Source: Sneathiella chinensis
GTDB lineage: Bacteria > Pseudomonadota > Alphaproteobacteria > Sneathiellales > Sneathiellaceae
DNA length: 64,000 nucleotides
Assembly: GCF_012720115.1 (NCBI RefSeq)
Contig: NZ_VNWN01000006.1
Location: forward strand, 372,001-436,000
Direction of reading: 5' to 3'
Shown: positions 15,660 to 45,410 of the stretch, in pieces
Position numbering within the stretch: the first letter of the stretch is position 1
Layout: each line of letters begins with the position of its first letter
Translations under genes and position numbers: made by a program
Notes under the pieces: generated by a model
What the model was told of the DNA's origin: nothing
What the model saw: the letters and a program-made list of their open reading frames with translations, nothing else
The model's database searches: none

Positions 15660-18600
15660 GTGATTAAAGAGACAGCGATATCCCCCGTTCATGAAGGATC
15701 AGAACCGGACATTCAGGCCGCAAGCTGGGATTTTCAGGGAAACGAAATTCTGGTTCAGATGCCCTATAAGGGTTTTCTGTTTGATGCGGATTACGCCCGG
15801 GATGGTCAGGATCTTGTGCTGACCGACGATCATGGCCGTGAGGTGGTGGTGGATGGATATTTTACCGTCCAACCGGCGCCCGATCTGGTCAACAGTGACG
15901 GTGCGCGGGTAACCGGGGATTTTGCAACTTTGCTGGCGGGGCCGGGACAGGTGGCGCAGGCGGGCCCCTCCGGGGATGCGGCCGCCGTTTCGGTTGGCAC
16001 GATCGAGACCCTGGAGGGGGTTGCAACCGTTCGTCATGCGGATGGCAGCAGTGAAACCCTGTCGGTTGGCTCCAAGGTCTACCAGAATGATATTATCGAG
16101 ACCGGCAGCGGGGCGTCCCTTGGGGTGCTGCTGAAGGACGGGACGGTTCTGGGCGTTGGGCCGGGGTCCCGCATGGCCATCGACAGTTTCGTTTATGATC
16201 AGGCTTCGACAGATGGCAATCTGGGATTATCCTTCCTGAAAGGGGCGGTTTCCTTTGTTTCCGGCAAGATTGCCAAGAACGATTATGATGATGTGAGCAT
16301 CAAGGTCCCTTACGGGTCGATCGGTATTCGCGGCACTGAATTTGTGGTGGAAATTGCCGCCGATGGCACCACGACCGTCTTCGTTCTGGACGGGGCCGTG
16401 GCCTCCATCGCCGGGGGGCAGGAAATTGTGCTCGACCCCGGTGAATATGTCAGTCTGGGCGCTGCCGGCCTGTCCGATGCGGCGCAAATCGCCATTGCGG
16501 CCATCGAGGCGCGGTATGGCTCCTTGCTGACGGTCCAGCGGAATACCATTATCATTCGCGACCAGCGCGAGGGAGAGGATGACGCCGACCTGAATGTCGC
16601 GCCGGAAGCCGGGGGGAATGCCACCCCCAGTGAGGGGGATGCGCCCGGCGATGGGGGCGATGGCACTGATCCCGGACCGGGAGAGCGGGAAACCCAAATT
16701 CAATTGGATGAATATGCCCCAATCCTGAATGTGGGGGAAATTGGTGATTTTTCTGAATTGGGAACGGTGGGGCTGACCTCCTTGCGCAACAGTCTCAGCC
16801 AATTCCGCATTCCGGATGATGATCAGTATTTGCTGACCCTGACCACCTTTATCGGGACAGATGGGGATGACCTGATCATTGGCGGGGATACCAACGATTT
16901 TATCAGCGGGCTGGGCGGCAATGACACCCTGATCGGGCTGGGGGGCGATGATATCGTCCTTGGTGGATCGGGGAACGACTTCATTTATGGCAGTCCCGGG
17001 GATGACTCCGTTGATGGCGGCACCGGCAACGATGTGATCGAGGGCGGACAGGGAAGCGCCGATATCCTGCTGGGCGGGGCCGGGAATGACCTGATTTACG
17101 GCGATGTGGCCAGCCAGTCGGGCGCGGTGATCGGTGATCATGATACCCTGCGAGGGCAGGCAGGCGATGATACCCTGATTGGCGGCGGCGGCAATGACAT
17201 CCTTGAGGGCGGGACCGGGAACGACCTGCTGGACGGGGGGCGCGGCGATGACATCCTGCTGGGCGGGGCCGGAACGGATACGGCCCGCCTGACCGGCTCG
17301 ATTGAAGATTATCGGTTCACGGTGGACGGGCAGACCTTTACCTTGCGAAATCTGGAAACAGGCGACCGCGACCAGTTGGAAAGTGTGGAGAACCTCCTCA
17401 TTGGCGGAGAGGCCTATTCGCTGGTTTCTGTCTCGCTGAACGGGGACGAGACGGTTCGTGAAGGGCGGGCCGCAGATTACAGCCTGAGCCTTGGCGGGGC
17501 GGAATTGCAGAACGGCCAGACATTGACCGTGCAGCTTGATCTGGACCTGCTGGGCGATGTCGGGACAACCCCCGTGCAGGATATCTTCCGTGCCGCGCTG
17601 CAATCGGCGGCGGACGGGACGGATGGGGTGACGTTTGATGGCGTCGATACCCTGACCTTCAGCGCCGGGGCCACCGGGCTGGATTTCAACCTTGCCTTCG
17701 ATAATGACACGGTGATTGAAGATGCAGAGATTTTCCGCATCCGCATTGGCGATATGGATGGCACGTCCGGAACCGGCATGGAGGTCCTGCCGGTAACAGG
17801 AAGCAGCAGTGTCACCACGGGCCTGTTCGATCGCACCAACCAGCCGCTGACTTGGGGGTTGGAGCAATCAGACACCACCGTTCAGGAAGGGGAGACCATC
17901 CGGTTTGATATTGACTGGGGCGGTATCACCCTGTCGGAAGGGCACACCCTGTCCTTCGATCTGGCCTTTTCGGGCGAGGCCTCCGGCAACGAGGATTTCG
18001 TCCAGAGTTTCCTTGGCGCCCTTGAGCAAGCGGTCCTGGCCACAACCGGGGTCAGCCTTTCCGGCACCACCATCACCTTTGACAGTACGGCCGAAAGCAG
18101 TTTCTCTTTTGCCCTTGAGGGCCTATCTGATGGTCAGGTCGAAGGGGATGAGAGTTTCTCCATCACCTTGTCCAGCCCGCGGATCGACGGCAATCCGGTT
18201 GCGGGAAGCGAGCCTGTCAATCTGGAGACCGTGCTGGAGGATGCGGACACGCTGGTCTTCTCCCTTGCCGGACAGGATCAGGTCACGGAAGGGGAGGATA
18301 TTCTGTATACCCTTTCCTGGGCCGGGGAAATTCCTGCGGGCGAGACGGCCTTGGTCACCTTCAGCCTGACCGATATCACCACCAGCGGCGGGGATCGCTA
18401 CAGCCTGAAATCCACATTGCTGGAGGCGGCGGGTCAGGTCGATGGGGTCACTTATGACGAGGCCAGCGGCGGGTTGATCATTACCGGCGGGAATGAAGCC
18501 CTGTCCAGCCTCTCCATCGTTCTGAAAACAAAGAATGACTCGCTGGTTGAACTGAACGAGAGCCTTTCCCTGAGCATTGAAACCGTAACCCTTTCCAATG

Positions 18601-19889
18601 GCGGGTCCGGCGGGATTGTGGATGGGGAGGTGACGACCACCATCGTGGATGAGGACCCTCTTGTCCTGTCCTTCGGGGGTGCCTCGCAAGTTCAGCAGGA
18701 AGGCAACAGTGCAGTCTTTTCCGTCGTGCTGGCCGGTCTGGCCCTGTCGGCCCTGCCAGCAGGCGGGTCGATCAGTTTTGATGTGGACCTTTCTTTCGGG
18801 ACCGCAGACGGGACGGATATCATTGGCGATTTGTCCCAGTCCCTGCAGGGGTTGCCGACCGGTGTTACGGTGACCGGAACGGGGAACCAGTTGACGATTA
18901 CCGTTGATGATAGGGTAGATTTTACCAATGGTCAGTTGACCCTTGATTTCAGCCTGCCGCTGAATGATCAAGACGGGCCGGAAGCCGATCAGGACTTCAC
19001 CCTGTCCCTTGGCAATGTGGTGTCGGATTTGATCCCGGTCCAACTGGGCTTGGATGCCCATGTGGTGACGATTGAGGACCCGACATACGGTGCCAACCTG
19101 CCCACTGAAGGGCCTGATTTCATTCTTGGCGGTCCGGGGGATGATTATATCTCGGCGCTGGGCGGGAATGATACGGTTTATGGGGATGTCGGGCATGACC
19201 TGATCCTTGGGGACGAGGGGGATGACAGCCTGTTTGGGGAAGGGGGCCATGATACCCTTCGCGGCGGACAGGGGGACGATACCCTTGTGGGCGGCGCAGG
19301 GAACGACAGGCTGATCGGCGGCGAGGGGCATGACCAGATGCTCGGCGGCGACGGAGAGGATACCCTGATCGGGGGCGAGGATGGCGGTGCCCCGGATTAT
19401 GGGGAAAATTCCCTGAGCGGCGGCGCTGGAGACGACCTTCTGCAGGGCGCTGATGGGGCCGACTGGCTGATGGGCGGTGCGGGGCTTGATACCATGACTG
19501 GCGGCGCAGGCGCCGACAGCTTCTGGTTTGATGGCGTCGGTGATATTGCCTCGGTTGCCGGAAACGGCGTTTTTTCAGGGGCTGCCGATGTGATCACGGA
19601 TTTCGAGACCGGTCAGGACAAGGTGCATCTGGACCCCTATGGTTTTGCCTTTGACGGCGGATATGATCCGACGGATGATTTCCTGACCACCATTGGCATG
19701 GCCGCCTATGATGGAACCAACGTGGATTATGGGGATGGTCAGGACACCGGCGAGGCCAAGGTCATCTTCGATGGCACCACCCTCTATTATGACGAGAACG
19801 GTTCCGGTGAAGGCTATTCGGTTATTGCCCGTCTTGATACAGGCGAAATAACCGGGGCGGATATCTCAACCAACAGCGCTCTGGCATAG
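15660..19889 (+). CDS. FecR-domain RTX protein with four beta-rich repeats, type I secretion substrate
   Basis: This acidic 1409-residue protein has no Sec signal and ends in a type I secretion region. In order: an N-terminal segment (1-105), a FecR/LapA-retention-like domain (about 110-265, with DGTVLGVGPGSRM and GSIGIRGTEFVV), an acidic Gly/Pro-rich linker (about 300-345), a first block of RTX nonapeptides (about 400-545), four related repeats of about 135 residues each starting near a V-x-EG motif (about 596, 738, 872 and 1010), a second RTX block (about 1150-1287) and a C-terminal domain with ADVITDFETGQDKV. It starts at GTG with the SD GGAGAG six bases upstream. It is probably a calcium-binding surface adhesin exported by the genes just upstream. 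GAAG at residues 267-270 could be a LapG-type cleavage site, but no LapG or LapD is in the window. Confidence 0.88.
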   Translation: MIKETAISPVHEGSEPDIQAASWDFQGNEILVQMPYKGFLFDADYARDGQDLVLTDDHGREVVVDGYFTVQPAPDLVNSDGARVTGDFATLLAGPGQVAQAGPSGDAAAVSVGTIETLEGVATVRHADGSSETLSVGSKVYQNDIIETGSGASLGVLLKDGTVLGVGPGSRMAIDSFVYDQASTDGNLGLSFLKGAVSFVSGKIAKNDYDDVSIKVPYGSIGIRGTEFVVEIAADGTTTVFVLDGAVASIAGGQEIVLDPGEYVSLGAAGLSDAAQIAIAAIEARYGSLLTVQRNTIIIRDQREGEDDADLNVAPEAGGNATPSEGDAPGDGGDGTDPGPGERETQIQLDEYAPILNVGEIGDFSELGTVGLTSLRNSLSQFRIPDDDQYLLTLTTFIGTDGDDLIIGGDTNDFISGLGGNDTLIGLGGDDIVLGGSGNDFIYGSPGDDSVDGGTGNDVIEGGQGSADILLGGAGNDLIYGDVASQSGAVIGDHDTLRGQAGDDTLIGGGGNDILEGGTGNDLLDGGRGDDILLGGAGTDTARLTGSIEDYRFTVDGQTFTLRNLETGDRDQLESVENLLIGGEAYSLVSVSLNGDETVREGRAADYSLSLGGAELQNGQTLTVQLDLDLLGDVGTTPVQDIFRAALQSAADGTDGVTFDGVDTLTFSAGATGLDFNLAFDNDTVIEDAEIFRIRIGDMDGTSGTGMEVLPVTGSSSVTTGLFDRTNQPLTWGLEQSDTTVQEGETIRFDIDWGGITLSEGHTLSFDLAFSGEASGNEDFVQSFLGALEQAVLATTGVSLSGTTITFDSTAESSFSFALEGLSDGQVEGDESFSITLSSPRIDGNPVAGSEPVNLETVLEDADTLVFSLAGQDQVTEGEDILYTLSWAGEIPAGETALVTFSLTDITTSGGDRYSLKSTLLEAAGQVDGVTYDEASGGLIITGGNEALSSLSIVLKTKNDSLVELNESLSLSIETVTLSNGGSGGIVDGEVTTTIVDEDPLVLSFGGASQVQQEGNSAVFSVVLAGLALSALPAGGSISFDVDLSFGTADGTDIIGDLSQSLQGLPTGVTVTGTGNQLTITVDDRVDFTNGQLTLDFSLPLNDQDGPEADQDFTLSLGNVVSDLIPVQLGLDAHVVTIEDPTYGANLPTEGPDFILGGPGDDYISALGGNDTVYGDVGHDLILGDEGDDSLFGEGGHDTLRGGQGDDTLVGGAGNDRLIGGEGHDQMLGGDGEDTLIGGEDGGAPDYGENSLSGGAGDDLLQGADGADWLMGGAGLDTMTGGAGADSFWFDGVGDIASVAGNGVFSGAADVITDFETGQDKVHLDPYGFAFDGGYDPTDDFLTTIGMAAYDGTNVDYGDGQDTGEAKVIFDGTTLYYDENGSGEGYSVIARLDTGEITGADISTNSALA

Positions 19890-19970: not shown

Positions 19971-20528
19971 TCAGGAAGGCAGCTTCCAGGTTGGCCGGAT
20001 GAAATGACAGGTATACCCTGACGGGAATTTCTGCAGGTAATCCTGATGTTCCGGCTCGGCAGGCCAGAAATCCATGATCGGCAGAATTTCCGTCACAATG
20101 GGGCCGGGCAGAACCTGCGCCTTTTCAAGGGCGTCCATTGCGGCGCGGGCGCTGCGTTCCTCTTCCTCGTCATTGACAAAAATGATGGATCGGTACTGGC
20201 TGCCCATATCGTTTCCTTGACGGTTCGGGGTGGTGGGATCGTGGATCTGGAAAAAGAACGCCAGAATGTCCTCAAAATTGGTCTGTGCCGGATCATAGAC
20301 AATCTCGACCGCCTCTGCGTGGCCGGTGCCGCCGAATTTCAGATCCTGATAACGGGGATGCTTGAGGGTGCCGCCCGTATACCCGACACGGGTGGCAAGG
20401 ACACCGGGGCGGGCCCGGATCAGGTCCTGCATCCCCCAGAAGCATCCTCCGGCAAGGACCGTGCGTTTGGTCTCGCTTGTCTGGGAATCAGTTTTCTTCA
20501 AATCGGTTCTTGTCTGGTCGGTGGTCAT
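19971..20528 (-). CDS. msrA: Peptide methionine-S-sulfoxide reductase MsrA
   Basis: This 185-residue enzyme reduces the S-epimer of methionine sulfoxide in oxidised proteins. The catalytic motif GCFWG lies about 30 residues from the N-terminus, followed by RVGYTGG and [12 protein letters not shown]. The C-terminus ends in [14 protein letters not shown], with a cysteine that may act in recycling. I chose the ATG at 20528 because of the SD (AAAAGGAG) nine bases upstream; the open frame continues to 20708 but that extension resembles no MsrA. It is convergent with the RTX gene. Confidence 0.93.
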
Positions 20529-20658
20529 GAGGGCGGCTCCTTTTCGAAGGCATTTTTCCTTTATGTCAGTATGTGGGGCAATGCCTTGTTTTTTCAATAT
20601 AAAATACAACCGATCAGGAACAGGGAATGGGGGGAGAACAGGGCGGAACAAAAAATTG

Positions 20659-20687
20659 TTGACGTGAGAACAAAACGTGAACATTAT
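20659..20687 (+). promoter_or_regulatory. Promoter with LexA-type operator between -35 and -10
   Basis: TTGACG (20659-20664) and CATTAT (20682-20687) are 17 bases apart and form a good sigma-70 promoter. The spacer contains GAAC-N7-GAAC (20668-20682), which on the other strand is GTTC-N7-GTTC, the LexA box of alphaproteobacteria. The same pattern lies over the lexA promoter in this window. A third GAAC at 20646 is in register at 22 bases. Repression by LexA and induction by DNA damage is the natural reading. The first ORF downstream is the 35-codon gene at 20724. Confidence 0.7.
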
Positions 20688-20723
20688 CCATTCAAACGTC
20701 ACTTGCATTTACAGGGATGAACA

Positions 20724-20831
20724 ATGAAAAACTGGAATTTGATCAAAAGCGGGTTTGAGTTTGTTGTATTTGGCGGCGCCCTCGGGATGATGGTTTTCTG
20801 GGCGGAAATCGTCCATTCTTTCACCGGATAA
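20724..20831 (+). CDS. Small single-pass membrane protein, probably SOS-induced
   Basis: This 35-codon ORF begins MKNWNLIKSG and continues with a hydrophobic segment of about 20 residues (roughly 11-31, including VVFGGALGMMVFW) and a short polar tail. An SD (AGGG, 20713-20716) lies seven bases upstream of the ATG. It is 37 bases downstream of a promoter carrying a LexA-type operator. Size, topology and control recall SidA of Caulobacter, a 29-residue SOS-induced inner-membrane inhibitor of cell division; I see no basis for claiming sequence homology. It ends 140 bases before dnaE and could also act as a leader ORF on a dnaE transcript. Confidence 0.6.
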   Translation: MKNWNLIKSGFEFVVFGGALGMMVFWAEIVHSFTG

Positions 20832-20971
20832 AAAGGGCCGGCGGGAAGGGGCCCGGTTGAGCCGGGAACTTATCCACAAAAAAAATGTCAGTCCGGGCGG
20901 TTCAAGGACTGACCTCTGGACAAGGATATGTAAAAATGGGGCGTGTAAAGTTTCATTTGGAGGATAGTTCC

Positions 20972-23900
20972 TTGTCCCATGCCGGTTTCGTACATTTGCG
21001 GGTGCATTCTGCCTATTCCCTGTCGGAAGGGGCGATCCCGGTCAAGAAACTGGTCGATCTTTGCAAGAAAAATAACATGCCGGCGGTGGCCATCACCGAT
21101 ACCAGCAACATGTTCGGCAGTCTCGAAGGCTCGCTGGCGCTGACCGGGGCCGGGGTCCAGCCCATTATCGGGTGCCAGTTGGCCATTACGCAGGATGGCG
21201 ACATGGACAAGAGCGGTCGCCGCCCGGAACCGGACTCCATTGTTCTGCTGGCCCAGGACGAGGCCGGATATTACAACCTTCTCAAGCTGACCTCCCATGC
21301 GTTCCTGAAAACCGATGCCGGGGAAACGGCGCAGGTCCCCAAGGATGTACTGGAAAAGCATTCTGCTGGCCTGATCTGCCTGACCGGCGGGGCCGAGGGG
21401 CCGATCGGGCGCCTGATCGCCGGGGAACAGATGGACGCGGCCCGCGCCTATCTGTCGTGGCTGCAGGGCCTTTTCCCGAACCGCCTTTATATGGAAATTC
21501 AGCGGCACGGTCTGGAACTGGAAGCCCTGACCGAAGGGGACATGCTGGATTTTGCCTATGACATGGATATTCCCCTTGTCGCCACCAACGAATGCTTCTT
21601 CCCGGCAAAGGACATGTACGAGGCCCATGACGCCCTGTTGTGTATTGCGGCGGGCAAGTATGTGGGGGACATGGATCGGCACCGGCGCACGCCTGAACAT
21701 TATTTCAAGTCGGCGGAGGAAATGGCCGCCCTGTTCAGTGATCTTCCCGAGGCCATCGACAACACTTTGGTGATTGCCCGGCGCTGTGCGGTTTCCTCGC
21801 CGCCGCGGGATCCTATCCTGCCGGCCTTTACCTCGGGCGAGGGACGGGATGAAGCCGGAGAGTTGGAGGCCATGGCAACCGATGGGTTGCACAAGCGGCT
21901 TGCCGAAGAGGTTTTCACCGATGACATGTCGGAAGAAGAACGGGCCGCCAAGTCCAAGGAATATTTTGATCGCCTGAACTATGAAACCGGCATCATTAAC
22001 CAGATGGGCTTTCCCGGCTACTTCCTGATCGTTTCCGACTTTATCCAGTGGTCCAAGGAACATGATATCCCCGTGGGACCGGGACGTGGTTCCGGTGCGG
22101 GGTCCATTGTGGCGTGGGCGCTGACCATTACGGACCTTGACCCGTTGCGCTTTGGCCTGCTGTTCGAACGCTTCCTGAACCCGGAACGTGTCAGCATGCC
22201 CGACTTTGATATCGACTTCTGTCAGGACAAGCGCGAGCGGGTTATCCGCTATGTGCAGAACAAATACGGCCATGATCAGGTGGCGCAGATCATTACCTTC
22301 GGTAAGCTGCAGGCCAAGGCGGCGGTCCGCGATGTGGGCCGTGTTCTGCAAATGCCTTACGGACAGGTGGACCGGATCAGTAAGCTGATCCCCGCCAACC
22401 CGGCCAACCCCATGAGCCTGCAGGAAGCGCTTGATACGGAACGCCCCTTGCGCGAGGCGCGGGACACGGACCCGGAAGTGGCCCGCCTGATCGAGATCGC
22501 CCTGCAACTGGAAGGCCTGTATCGCCACGCCTCGACCCACGCGGCGGGTGTTGTGATCGGGGACCGGGAACTGGACGAACTGGTGCCGCTTTACCGCGAT
22601 CCGCGTTCGGACATGCCGGTGACGCAATATTCCATGAAATATGCGGAAACCGCCGGTCTGGTGAAGTTCGACTTTCTGGGCCTGAAAACCCTGACGGTGC
22701 TGGACCGGGCCAAGGCCCTGATCGCCAAGCGCGGGATCGAGATTGACTATGCCAAGGTGCCGCTGGACGACAAGAAGGCGTTTGAGCTTTTGTCGCGCGG
22801 GGATACGGTCGGCGTCTTCCAGCTTGAAAGTTCGGGCATGCGCGACATGCTGCGCAAGATGCGGCCCGACGCCTTTGAGGATATCATCGCGATCGTGGCC
22901 CTGTACCGTCCGGGCCCGATGGAGAATATCCCGACCTATATCCGGTGTAAGCACGGCGAGGAAGAACCGAACCTGCTGCACCCGAAACTGGAACATATCC
23001 TTGAGGAAACCTACGGCGTTATCATCTATCAGGAACAGGTGATGGAAATCGCGAAGGTTCTGGCCGGGTACAGCCTTGGTGAAGCGGACCTTCTGCGCCG
23101 CGCCATGGGTAAGAAGATCAAGGAGGAAATGGACAAGCAGCGGGAACGCTTCTGTGAAGGCGCGGTCGAGCAGGGCGTCAAGGCGAAGGACGCCAGCCAT
23201 ATCTTTGATCTTGTTGCGAAATTCGCCAGTTACGGCTTCAACAAATCCCACGCGGCGGCCTATGCGCTCGTGTCCTATCACACGGCTTATCTGAAGGCCA
23301 ATTTCCCGGTCGAATTCATGGCCGCGTCCATGAGCCTTGATCTGAACAACACCGACAAGCTGAACATCTTCCGGCAGGATCTGGACCGGATGAACATTCC
23401 CATTCACCCGCCCTGCCTGAACGCGTCCGAGGTGGAATTCACCGTTGAATTTGACGGGGACGAAGGCGCAGTGCGCTACGCGTTGGCGGCGGTCAAGAAT
23501 GTGGGTAAGGAAGCCATGGCCGGTGTGATCGAGGAGCGGCGCGAAAACGGCCCTTACAAGGACCTGTTCGATTTCGCATCGCGGCTGAATACCCGGCACC
23601 TGAACAAGCGGCAGGCGGAAAATCTTGTCCGGGCAGGGGCGTTTGATGCGCTGAACCCGGACCGGGCGCAGGTCTTCGCGTCCATTGAAACCCTTCTCAG
23701 ACATGCGCAGCAAACGCAGGAGGAGAAAGGATCGGGACAGGTCAACCTGTTTGGCGGGCCGGAAGCCAGCATGTCCGTGGTGCCGGACCTGCCCAAGGTA
23801 TCCCGCTGGACCTCCATGGAGCAGTTGAAGCAGGAATTTGATGCCATCGGCTTTTACCTGTCCGGGCACCCGCTGGATGCTTACGCCAAGACACTGGACA

Positions 23901-24439
23901 AGGCCGGTGTGCGCAACAGTGCGTCTTATATGAGTGGTCTTGGCGCGTCGGAGACAGCGGCCAAACTGGCCGGTACTGTTATGGGGCGGCGGGAATTGCG
24001 CACCAAGAAGGGCAAGGCGCTGGCTTTTGTGCAACTGTCCGATGCCAGCGGCGCCTTCGAGGTTACCATGTTCGAGGAAACCCTCTATGCCTGCCGCGAG
24101 TTGCTGGAGGTGGGAACCTCCATCGTGGTTAATGTGACCGGTAATATCGACAATGACCAGCCCCGCCTCACGGCCAACGGGGTTCAGAGGCTGGAAACCG
24201 TCGCGGCGCAAACCGGGGACGGGGTGCGTGTGTTCATCGATGATGACAGTCCGCTGGCCCAGATTGCCACCATTCTGGACAATGGGGGCCGGGGCCGGGG
24301 CCGGGTCGCCTTTGTGGTGAATCTGGAGGATGAATCCAAGGAAGTCGAGCTTGACCTTGCCGGAAAATACAATATCTCTCCTGAAGTGCGGCAGGCCATC
24401 AAATACGTTCCGGGTGTGGTGGATGTGCACGACATCTAA
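20972..24439 (+). CDS. dnaE: DNA polymerase III alpha subunit
   Basis: This 1155-residue replicative polymerase subunit has an N-terminal PHP domain (from FVHLRVHSAYSL), the C-family polymerase palm with catalytic D413 and D415 in MPDFDIDF, the fingers and tandem helix-hairpin-helix region, and a C-terminal OB fold (about residues 980-1070, near RRELRTKKGKALAFVQLSD). The TTG at 20972 is chosen because a perfect SD (GGAGGA, 20959-20964) lies seven bases upstream and because the product then aligns at its start with E. coli DnaE (MSxxxFVHLRVHS). Upstream in-frame ATGs at 20885 and 20936 lack good SDs. It may be read in part from the LexA-controlled promoter at 20659. Confidence 0.96.
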   Translation: MSHAGFVHLRVHSAYSLSEGAIPVKKLVDLCKKNNMPAVAITDTSNMFGSLEGSLALTGAGVQPIIGCQLAITQDGDMDKSGRRPEPDSIVLLAQDEAGYYNLLKLTSHAFLKTDAGETAQVPKDVLEKHSAGLICLTGGAEGPIGRLIAGEQMDAARAYLSWLQGLFPNRLYMEIQRHGLELEALTEGDMLDFAYDMDIPLVATNECFFPAKDMYEAHDALLCIAAGKYVGDMDRHRRTPEHYFKSAEEMAALFSDLPEAIDNTLVIARRCAVSSPPRDPILPAFTSGEGRDEAGELEAMATDGLHKRLAEEVFTDDMSEEERAAKSKEYFDRLNYETGIINQMGFPGYFLIVSDFIQWSKEHDIPVGPGRGSGAGSIVAWALTITDLDPLRFGLLFERFLNPERVSMPDFDIDFCQDKRERVIRYVQNKYGHDQVAQIITFGKLQAKAAVRDVGRVLQMPYGQVDRISKLIPANPANPMSLQEALDTERPLREARDTDPEVARLIEIALQLEGLYRHASTHAAGVVIGDRELDELVPLYRDPRSDMPVTQYSMKYAETAGLVKFDFLGLKTLTVLDRAKALIAKRGIEIDYAKVPLDDKKAFELLSRGDTVGVFQLESSGMRDMLRKMRPDAFEDIIAIVALYRPGPMENIPTYIRCKHGEEEPNLLHPKLEHILEETYGVIIYQEQVMEIAKVLAGYSLGEADLLRRAMGKKIKEEMDKQRERFCEGAVEQGVKAKDASHIFDLVAKFASYGFNKSHAAAYALVSYHTAYLKANFPVEFMAASMSLDLNNTDKLNIFRQDLDRMNIPIHPPCLNASEVEFTVEFDGDEGAVRYALAAVKNVGKEAMAGVIEERRENGPYKDLFDFASRLNTRHLNKRQAENLVRAGAFDALNPDRAQVFASIETLLRHAQQTQEEKGSGQVNLFGGPEASMSVVPDLPKVSRWTSMEQLKQEFDAIGFYLSGHPLDAYAKTLDKAGVRNSASYMSGLGASETAAKLAGTVMGRRELRTKKGKALAFVQLSDASGAFEVTMFEETLYACRELLEVGTSIVVNVTGNIDNDQPRLTANGVQRLETVAAQTGDGVRVFIDDDSPLAQIATILDNGGRGRGRVAFVVNLEDESKEVELDLAGKYNISPEVRQAIKYVPGVVDVHDI

Positions 24440-44572: not shown

Positions 44573-45343
44573 TCAGTATTTCCGGAACAAGCCGACCAGT
44601 TGCCCCTGAACCTTGATGCGGTCCGGCCCAAAAATGCGGGTTTCATAATCGGGATTTGCGGCTTCAAGTGCGATGGTGCTGCCCTTGCGGCGTAACCGTT
44701 TCAGGGTCACTTCCTGATCATCGATCAGGGCCACAACGATGGAGCCGTTTTCGGCAGTTTTGCCTTCGCGGATAATGACCGTATCGCCGTCGTGAATACC
44801 TGCATCAATCATGGAATCCCCGGCAACCTCAAGGCAATAATGGTCCCCGGATGCCAGCATGGTCGGCGGAACATCCACAAAACTGGTGGGATCGCGCAGC
44901 GCCTCAATGGCCGTACCGGCGGCAATGCGCCCATAAAGCGGCAGGGTAATGCTGGTTTCCGCAGGAGAGGAAGGGGGGCGCGCAGACGCCGCACCGTCCC
45001 CGGTTTCCCCATGAGACGGGCCATGAGCATGGGCGTGGGGATTATTGGAGAAATCCGCCTGAACCACGTTAAATTCACCCCCGTCGGCGGCAGGATGGTG
45101 ACGCTTGGTAATTCCGGTAGGCAGAACCGCATCCGGCAGTTTCAGGATTTCCAGCGCTCGTGCCCGGTGGGGCAGGCGGCGGATAAAACCCCGTTCTGTC
45201 AGGCCGGTGATAAGCCGGTGAATTCCCGACTTGGATTTCAGGTCCAGCGCCTCTTTCATTTCATCAAAGGACGGGCACACACCCTTCTTTTCCAGATAGG
45301 TGTGAATATACATGAGAAGTTCATGTTGCTTCTTGGTTAGCAT
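44573..45343 (-). CDS. lexA: SOS repressor LexA
   Basis: This 256-residue repressor and self-cleaving protease controls the DNA-damage response. A winged helix-turn-helix occupies residues 1-70 ([21 protein letters not shown]). The cleavage site is A142-G143, the catalytic pair S177 (GDSM) and K215 (VTLKRL). The linker between the domains (about 75-130) is unusually long and includes [11 protein letters not shown], making the protein clearly longer than the 202-residue E. coli form. Its promoter carries a GTTC-N7-GTTC box, so it is autoregulated. Confidence 0.96.
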
Positions 45344-45381
45344 CGACCCCGCCTCGAGAACAAAACAAAAACATTATGTAT

Positions 45382-45410
45382 GTTCTACAAAAGTTCTCCT
45401 TTAGGGTCAA
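45382..45410 (-). promoter_or_regulatory. lexA promoter overlapped by a LexA box
   Basis: On the minus strand TTGACC (45410-45405) and TAGAAC (45387-45382) are 17 bases apart. The operator GAAC-N7-GAAC (45396-45382), which is GTTC-N7-GTTC on the plus strand, overlaps the -10. A second, imperfect copy (GTTT-N7-GTTC, 45372-45358) lies downstream in the leader. This is classic autorepression geometry. Confidence 0.75.

Follow-up and report, generated by a model that had tools for sequence, protein, structure and literature searches.

Does the short reading frame directly before dnaE, which escapes standard gene finding, encode a real membrane protein, and, if so, how might it be controlled and what might it do? 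The window, i.e., the whole 64,000-nucleotide stretch of Sneathiella chinensis DNA analyzed here, carries the gene of the DNA polymerase III alpha subunit, dnaE, at 20936..24439 on the forward strand (TIGR00594, 1245.7 bits), with an ATG start at 20936 and an additional in-frame ATG at 20885. About 100 nt before this start lies the stop (20831) of a 35-residue ORF (MKNWNLIKSGFEFVVFGGALGMMVFWAEIVHSFTG, 20724..20831, +), a putative SidA-like gene for a single-pass membrane protein according to the conservation, dN/dS, and predicted helix described below. Its promoter consists of a −35 hexamer TTGACG (20659..20664, +) and a −10 hexamer CATTAT (20682..20687, +) with a 17-nt spacer, and in this spacer lies the predicted LexA operator GAACAAAACGTGAAC (20668..20682, +), which reads as GTTC-N7-GTTC on the other strand. 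The coordinates given in an earlier note on this DNA, which had described the promoter as TTGACG-N17-CATTAT with GAAC-N7-GAAC in the spacer, were right. The same note had called the 35-residue frame, with its Shine-Dalgarno sequence, the first ORF after the promoter; the ORF and the Shine-Dalgarno-like AGGGA (20713..20717, +) were both confirmed, but the first ATG belongs to a 13-codon reading in a different frame, which begins at 20717 and precedes the start of the 35-residue ORF.

The bare GAAC-N7-GAAC pattern by itself is weak evidence for an operator, with four occurrences in the window versus 2.0 expected, and 155 in the genome versus 99 for the reversed control. This genome-wide frequency is what speaks for a chance box in front of a chance ORF, with no gene at all. 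Because the counts of the bare pattern were uninformative, conservation was used as the basis of the analysis, and in whole-genome searches the 35-residue sequence was compared with 25 genomes from the genus, one of them that of the window. The ORF was found in 22 of them, with E values of 1e-7 to 6e-13 in the relatives, and the three genomes without it are incomplete drafts (65–84%). Loss of the reading frame, or of the GAAC-N7-GAAC spacing, in related genomes had been named beforehand as evidence that would speak against the proposed SOS-induced protein; the frame was kept, and an exact GAAC-N7-GAAC was present before the ORF at the same promoter position, with dnaE next, in all 22 genomes with the ORF (window's included). 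The promoter layout of the genus is TTGAC-N4-GAAC-N7-GAAC-ATTAT, most commonly in the form TTGACAAAAGAACAAAACAAGAACATTAT; TTGAC is invariant in the 21 tabulated loci, the −10 hexamer is CATTAT or CATTCT in most relatives, and the Shine-Dalgarno-like sequence of the relatives is GGAG/AGGAG. The ORFs start with ATG 30–41 nt downstream of the box and encode single helices of 35–37 residues with 60–79% identity.

The pattern of substitution was that of a translated sequence. Heterozygosity across the 22 sequences was 0.535 at third codon positions versus 0.19–0.20 at positions one and two, a 2.7-fold difference, and the median dN/dS was ~0.14 for 107 unsaturated pairs, an approximate value, as many pairs were saturated. 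The two alternative frames were broken by stops in 20 and 21 of the 22 sequences, respectively. Upstream neighbors differ among species (lolD-like genes, other ORFs, or, in the window, msrA), whereas the order of operator, ORF, and dnaE is constant. Since frame, residues, operator, and synteny are conserved in 22 genomes, the 35-residue ORF is, on comparative sequence grounds, a protein-coding gene, and the same conservation already refutes a chance origin, to which we assign a practically negligible probability.

Two further features of the genus loci were observed. In six of the 22 loci (L010, L012, L013, L017, L018, and L019), another LexA-like box in antiparallel orientation (GTTCTCTTTTTGTTT/C) lies 22–24 nt before the first box and overlaps the −35 hexamer, suggesting that repression is tighter or that a divergent transcript is made. 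The window itself has an msrA-like gene (peptide methionine sulfoxide reductase A, ~19971–20529, −) divergent from the micropeptide, and other genes, often lolD-like, occupy this position in the relatives. The idea that the operator serves the divergent msrA was rejected, as msrA is absent upstream in the relatives.

A stricter form of the operator, GAACAWWACRNGAAC, has a single mismatch-free occurrence in 3.55 Mb, at the promoter of the short ORF. When one mismatch was allowed, ten more sites were found, including one in the promoter of recA (G000:C17:13276) and one in that of lexA (45358). The lexA gene, whose product would be expected to recognize the operator, was identified by its translation at 44573..45343 (−) in the window and has two boxes upstream, one with one mismatch (45358–45372) and one exact (45382–45396), in agreement with the earlier proposal that a lexA gene with the same operator type is present in the window. 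The recA genes of the genus (loci L275–L297) served as a positive control. Their promoters contain GAACAAAACATGTAC or a one-base variant in nearly all readable genomes, ~94 nt before a reference point fixed in the N-terminal part and directly after a TTGC/TTGT −35-like motif, so that the recA operator and the operator of the short ORF have a common core and the same kind of promoter position. Because recA of the genus has an operator with the same core and lexA in the window has two boxes, the predicted control of the micropeptide promoter by LexA is well supported at the sequence level. In nearly all genomes, GAACAAAACATGTAC shows a conserved one-base departure (GTAC) from GAAC-N7-GAAC, and a weaker second box was observed ~66 nt upstream in the recA genes of the genus.

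AlphaFold2 predicted one helix spanning residues 2–34 (mean pLDDT, 94.3) with a hydrophobic core, and in this model the product would be a single-pass membrane peptide. Residues K8, F11, E12, F16, F25, W26, and V30 are conserved and are candidates for a contact face. SidA of Caulobacter crescentus (CCNA_02004; NF033228), with which the earlier note had compared the peptide as a functional analogue, is a LexA-controlled protein of 29 residues located in the inner membrane; it interacts with FtsW, the current view being that it keeps the FtsW/I/N complex inactive, and the filamentation of a ΔlexA strain is due to SidA (PMC4211646, PMC12700426). SidA is suppressed by the FtsW substitutions F145L and A246T (PMC4211646). 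It shares with the window gene the slot upstream of dnaE, an operator of the GAAC-N7-GAAC type, and, by prediction for the window gene, LexA control and a single short membrane helix. The window protein differs from it in having 35 residues, in matching neither NF033228 nor the FVWM-type motif, and in the motifs of its own family, K8-x2-F11-E12 and F25-W26-A-E/D-I-V.

The slot was examined in the Caulobacter/Phenylobacterium/Brevundimonas family, in which 79 genomes were searched and 50 dnaE upstream regions, in addition to ~60 named loci, were read. It usually holds a 29-residue peptide. Scored on NF033228, the NCBIfam equivalog model for SidA (cut-off, 35 bits), the 29-residue slot peptide of Caulobacter zeae reached 72.5 bits and a second Caulobacter slot ORF 59.7 bits, and the model also matches in Caulobacter vibrioides. 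In the literature, Caulobacter dnaE is CC1926 (PMC1839093) and sidA is CCNA_02004 (PMC11034885). As the Caulobacter slot ORFs score above the cut-off of the model, SidA itself, identified by profile match, occupies the slot between the LexA box and dnaE in Caulobacter. We take CC1926 and CCNA_02004 to be adjacent, in agreement with this placement; the sequence evidence is independent of this numbering. Tandem LexA boxes exactly 18 nt apart were seen upstream of the slot at several loci of this family (L136/L167, L151, L160, L171, and L193), and at one of these (L193, genome G084) two exact boxes upstream of dnaE were accompanied by no recognizable 29-residue SidA in our scan, the copy having possibly been missed or degraded.

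Membership of the window peptide in the SidA family by sequence was not borne out. NF033228 at its 35-bit cut-off did not match the window protein or 12 relatives from the genus, and Pfam and NCBIfam held no family for the window protein. The reach of the model is narrow, as nothing scored above its cut-off in 192 genomes of the class, and among the controls only C. vibrioides did. Compared directly at the profile level, the window family and Caulobacter SidA gave no more than noise (score 8.45, with 32 of 60 shuffles as good). Indirect links were obtained: profile–profile comparison connected the window family modestly to family f74 (62%, E 7e-5; one of 60 hydrophobicity-preserving shuffles as good), f74 to a SidA-plus-Parvibaculum set (96%, E 6e-9), and the Parvibaculum/Rhodobiaceae/f10 group to SidA (95%, E 5e-8), with the caveat that short hydrophobic helices look alike through composition. 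Iteration of the SidA profile reached Parvibaculum and other families; the decoys that scored highest with the Caulobacter model were from loci of Caulobacteraceae, and these are probably SidA copies missing from the list. HMM iteration from the genus of the window reached only the sister genus, weakly (E 0.13), with a decoy scoring better, and significant direct homology of the window family to SidA is not claimed. The comparison with SidA nevertheless extends beyond size, since in Caulobacteraceae the gene with a LexA box before it and dnaE behind it is SidA itself. Because slot, control, size class, and topology are the same, the window peptide is best described as the positional counterpart of SidA and is probably a highly diverged ortholog.

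We consider it likely that the SidA checkpoint gene is represented in this lineage by the window locus, whose product would be induced by DNA damage and arrest division. In the proposed mechanism, LexA bound to the recA-type operator between the −35 and −10 hexamers of a sigma-70-type promoter would block RNA polymerase; RecA on single-stranded DNA would trigger LexA cleavage, and the peptide would then be made. The peptide would insert in the inner membrane with its Lys-bearing N-terminus in the cytoplasm, as predicted from the positive-inside rule, and, by analogy with Caulobacter SidA, may block the late divisome (FtsW/FtsI/FtsN) and thereby delay septation until repair. TisB and DinQ of E. 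coli, SOS-controlled single-helix membrane peptides of ~30 residues, are toxins with antisense RNA control and no link to dnaE. It is rather unlikely that the window gene encodes a micropeptide of this kind, one that acts on the inner membrane, by depolarization or otherwise, to slow growth or favor persistence and does not bind the divisome. Its size, single helix, and LexA control would fit equally well, and DinQ of E. coli is a toxic peptide with a single TM segment that is under SOS regulation (PMC3567139); however, the slot is that of SidA, an experimentally studied division inhibitor, and conserved residues as specific as K8, F11, E12, F16, F25, W26, and V30 suggest a protein partner over a generic membrane effect.

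We also examined how this arrangement is distributed among more distant genomes. Of the class, 387 genomes yielded a dnaE locus, and for 109 genomes from other genera the 600 nt preceding this gene were inspected. An exact box with spacer 7, in the same orientation, was found upstream of dnaE in 21 of these, from 11 families, which include the window's own family through the sister genus (G025), while nine other spacer lengths (3–6 and 8–12) were found in zero to four genomes each of the same 109; the remaining 88 sampled genomes had no exact box in this region. In 20 of the 21 box-bearing genomes, a membrane ORF of 26–48 residues with an ATG start begins no more than 120 nt from the box, and the last one (G034) has the same ORF with a non-ATG start; in box-less genomes, 3% of matched windows contain such an ORF. 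No candidate was seen in the dnaE upstream regions of the Dongia, Magnetospirillum, Reyranella, and Marinosulfonomonas loci. The SidA-type checkpoint is probably older and wider than annotation suggests. More tentatively, it is possible that the unit of operator, membrane micropeptide, and dnaE is an ancestral damage checkpoint of the Alphaproteobacteria that occurs in at least 11 families and whose sequence drifts so rapidly that it has been recognized only in its Caulobacteraceae version (SidA); in some lineages, read-through might raise the replicative polymerase subunit and block division from one promoter.

The proximity to dnaE also bears on a reading in which the ORF is a leader or operon-mate that places dnaE under SOS control, through translational coupling or as a transcript leader, with the peptide being secondary. 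In its favor, the ORF keeps a fixed position ~100 nt before dnaE in all relatives, and there is no convincing Rho-independent terminator between 20831 and dnaE, two nearby matches falling inside the ORF. We nevertheless hold this reading to be very improbable: purifying selection acts on the amino acids along the helix, the gap to dnaE, which measures tens of nt in some families and up to a few hundred in others, is too long for tight coupling, and it is as a protein that SidA functions in this slot.

SOS control of division is thought to rely on unrelated inhibitors in each group, such as SulA, YneA, and SidA. YneA of Bacillus and SosA of Staphylococcus are likewise LexA-controlled small membrane division inhibitors, but they are larger, unrelated Firmicutes proteins with locus contexts of their own. 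DidA of Caulobacter, unlike the window gene with its LexA operator, is SOS-independent and controlled by DriD. It is a small, damage-induced inner-membrane division inhibitor acting through FtsN (PMC4211646), a description that the window product may share, and YneA is reported to interact with FtsW (PMC13396833). SidA and its LexA control were known already; new here are this lineage's version and the class-wide arrangement of operator, micropeptide, and dnaE, missed by current family models. A limited literature search, in which absence counts as weak evidence, returned no report of SidA counterparts outside Caulobacterales or of a class-wide dnaE-linked arrangement. Across alphaproteobacterial families, the slot and the switch appear to be conserved while the peptide drifts, and the rule of a LexA box followed by a short membrane ORF and dnaE could find the missing inhibitor in genomes without an annotated one. 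If the SidA checkpoint reading is true, SidA would be the known tip of a wide family, the natural variants could help to map the way in which a helix of this type silences FtsW, and lists of LexA targets that would name dnaE as the controlled gene would be corrected.

Elsewhere in the window, 15660–19889 encodes a protein of 1409 residues whose N-terminal part is FecR-like and which also carries Ca-binding repeats of the hemolysin type. Long open frames of 546 and 402 residues on the opposite strand of this gene are probably an effect of composition.
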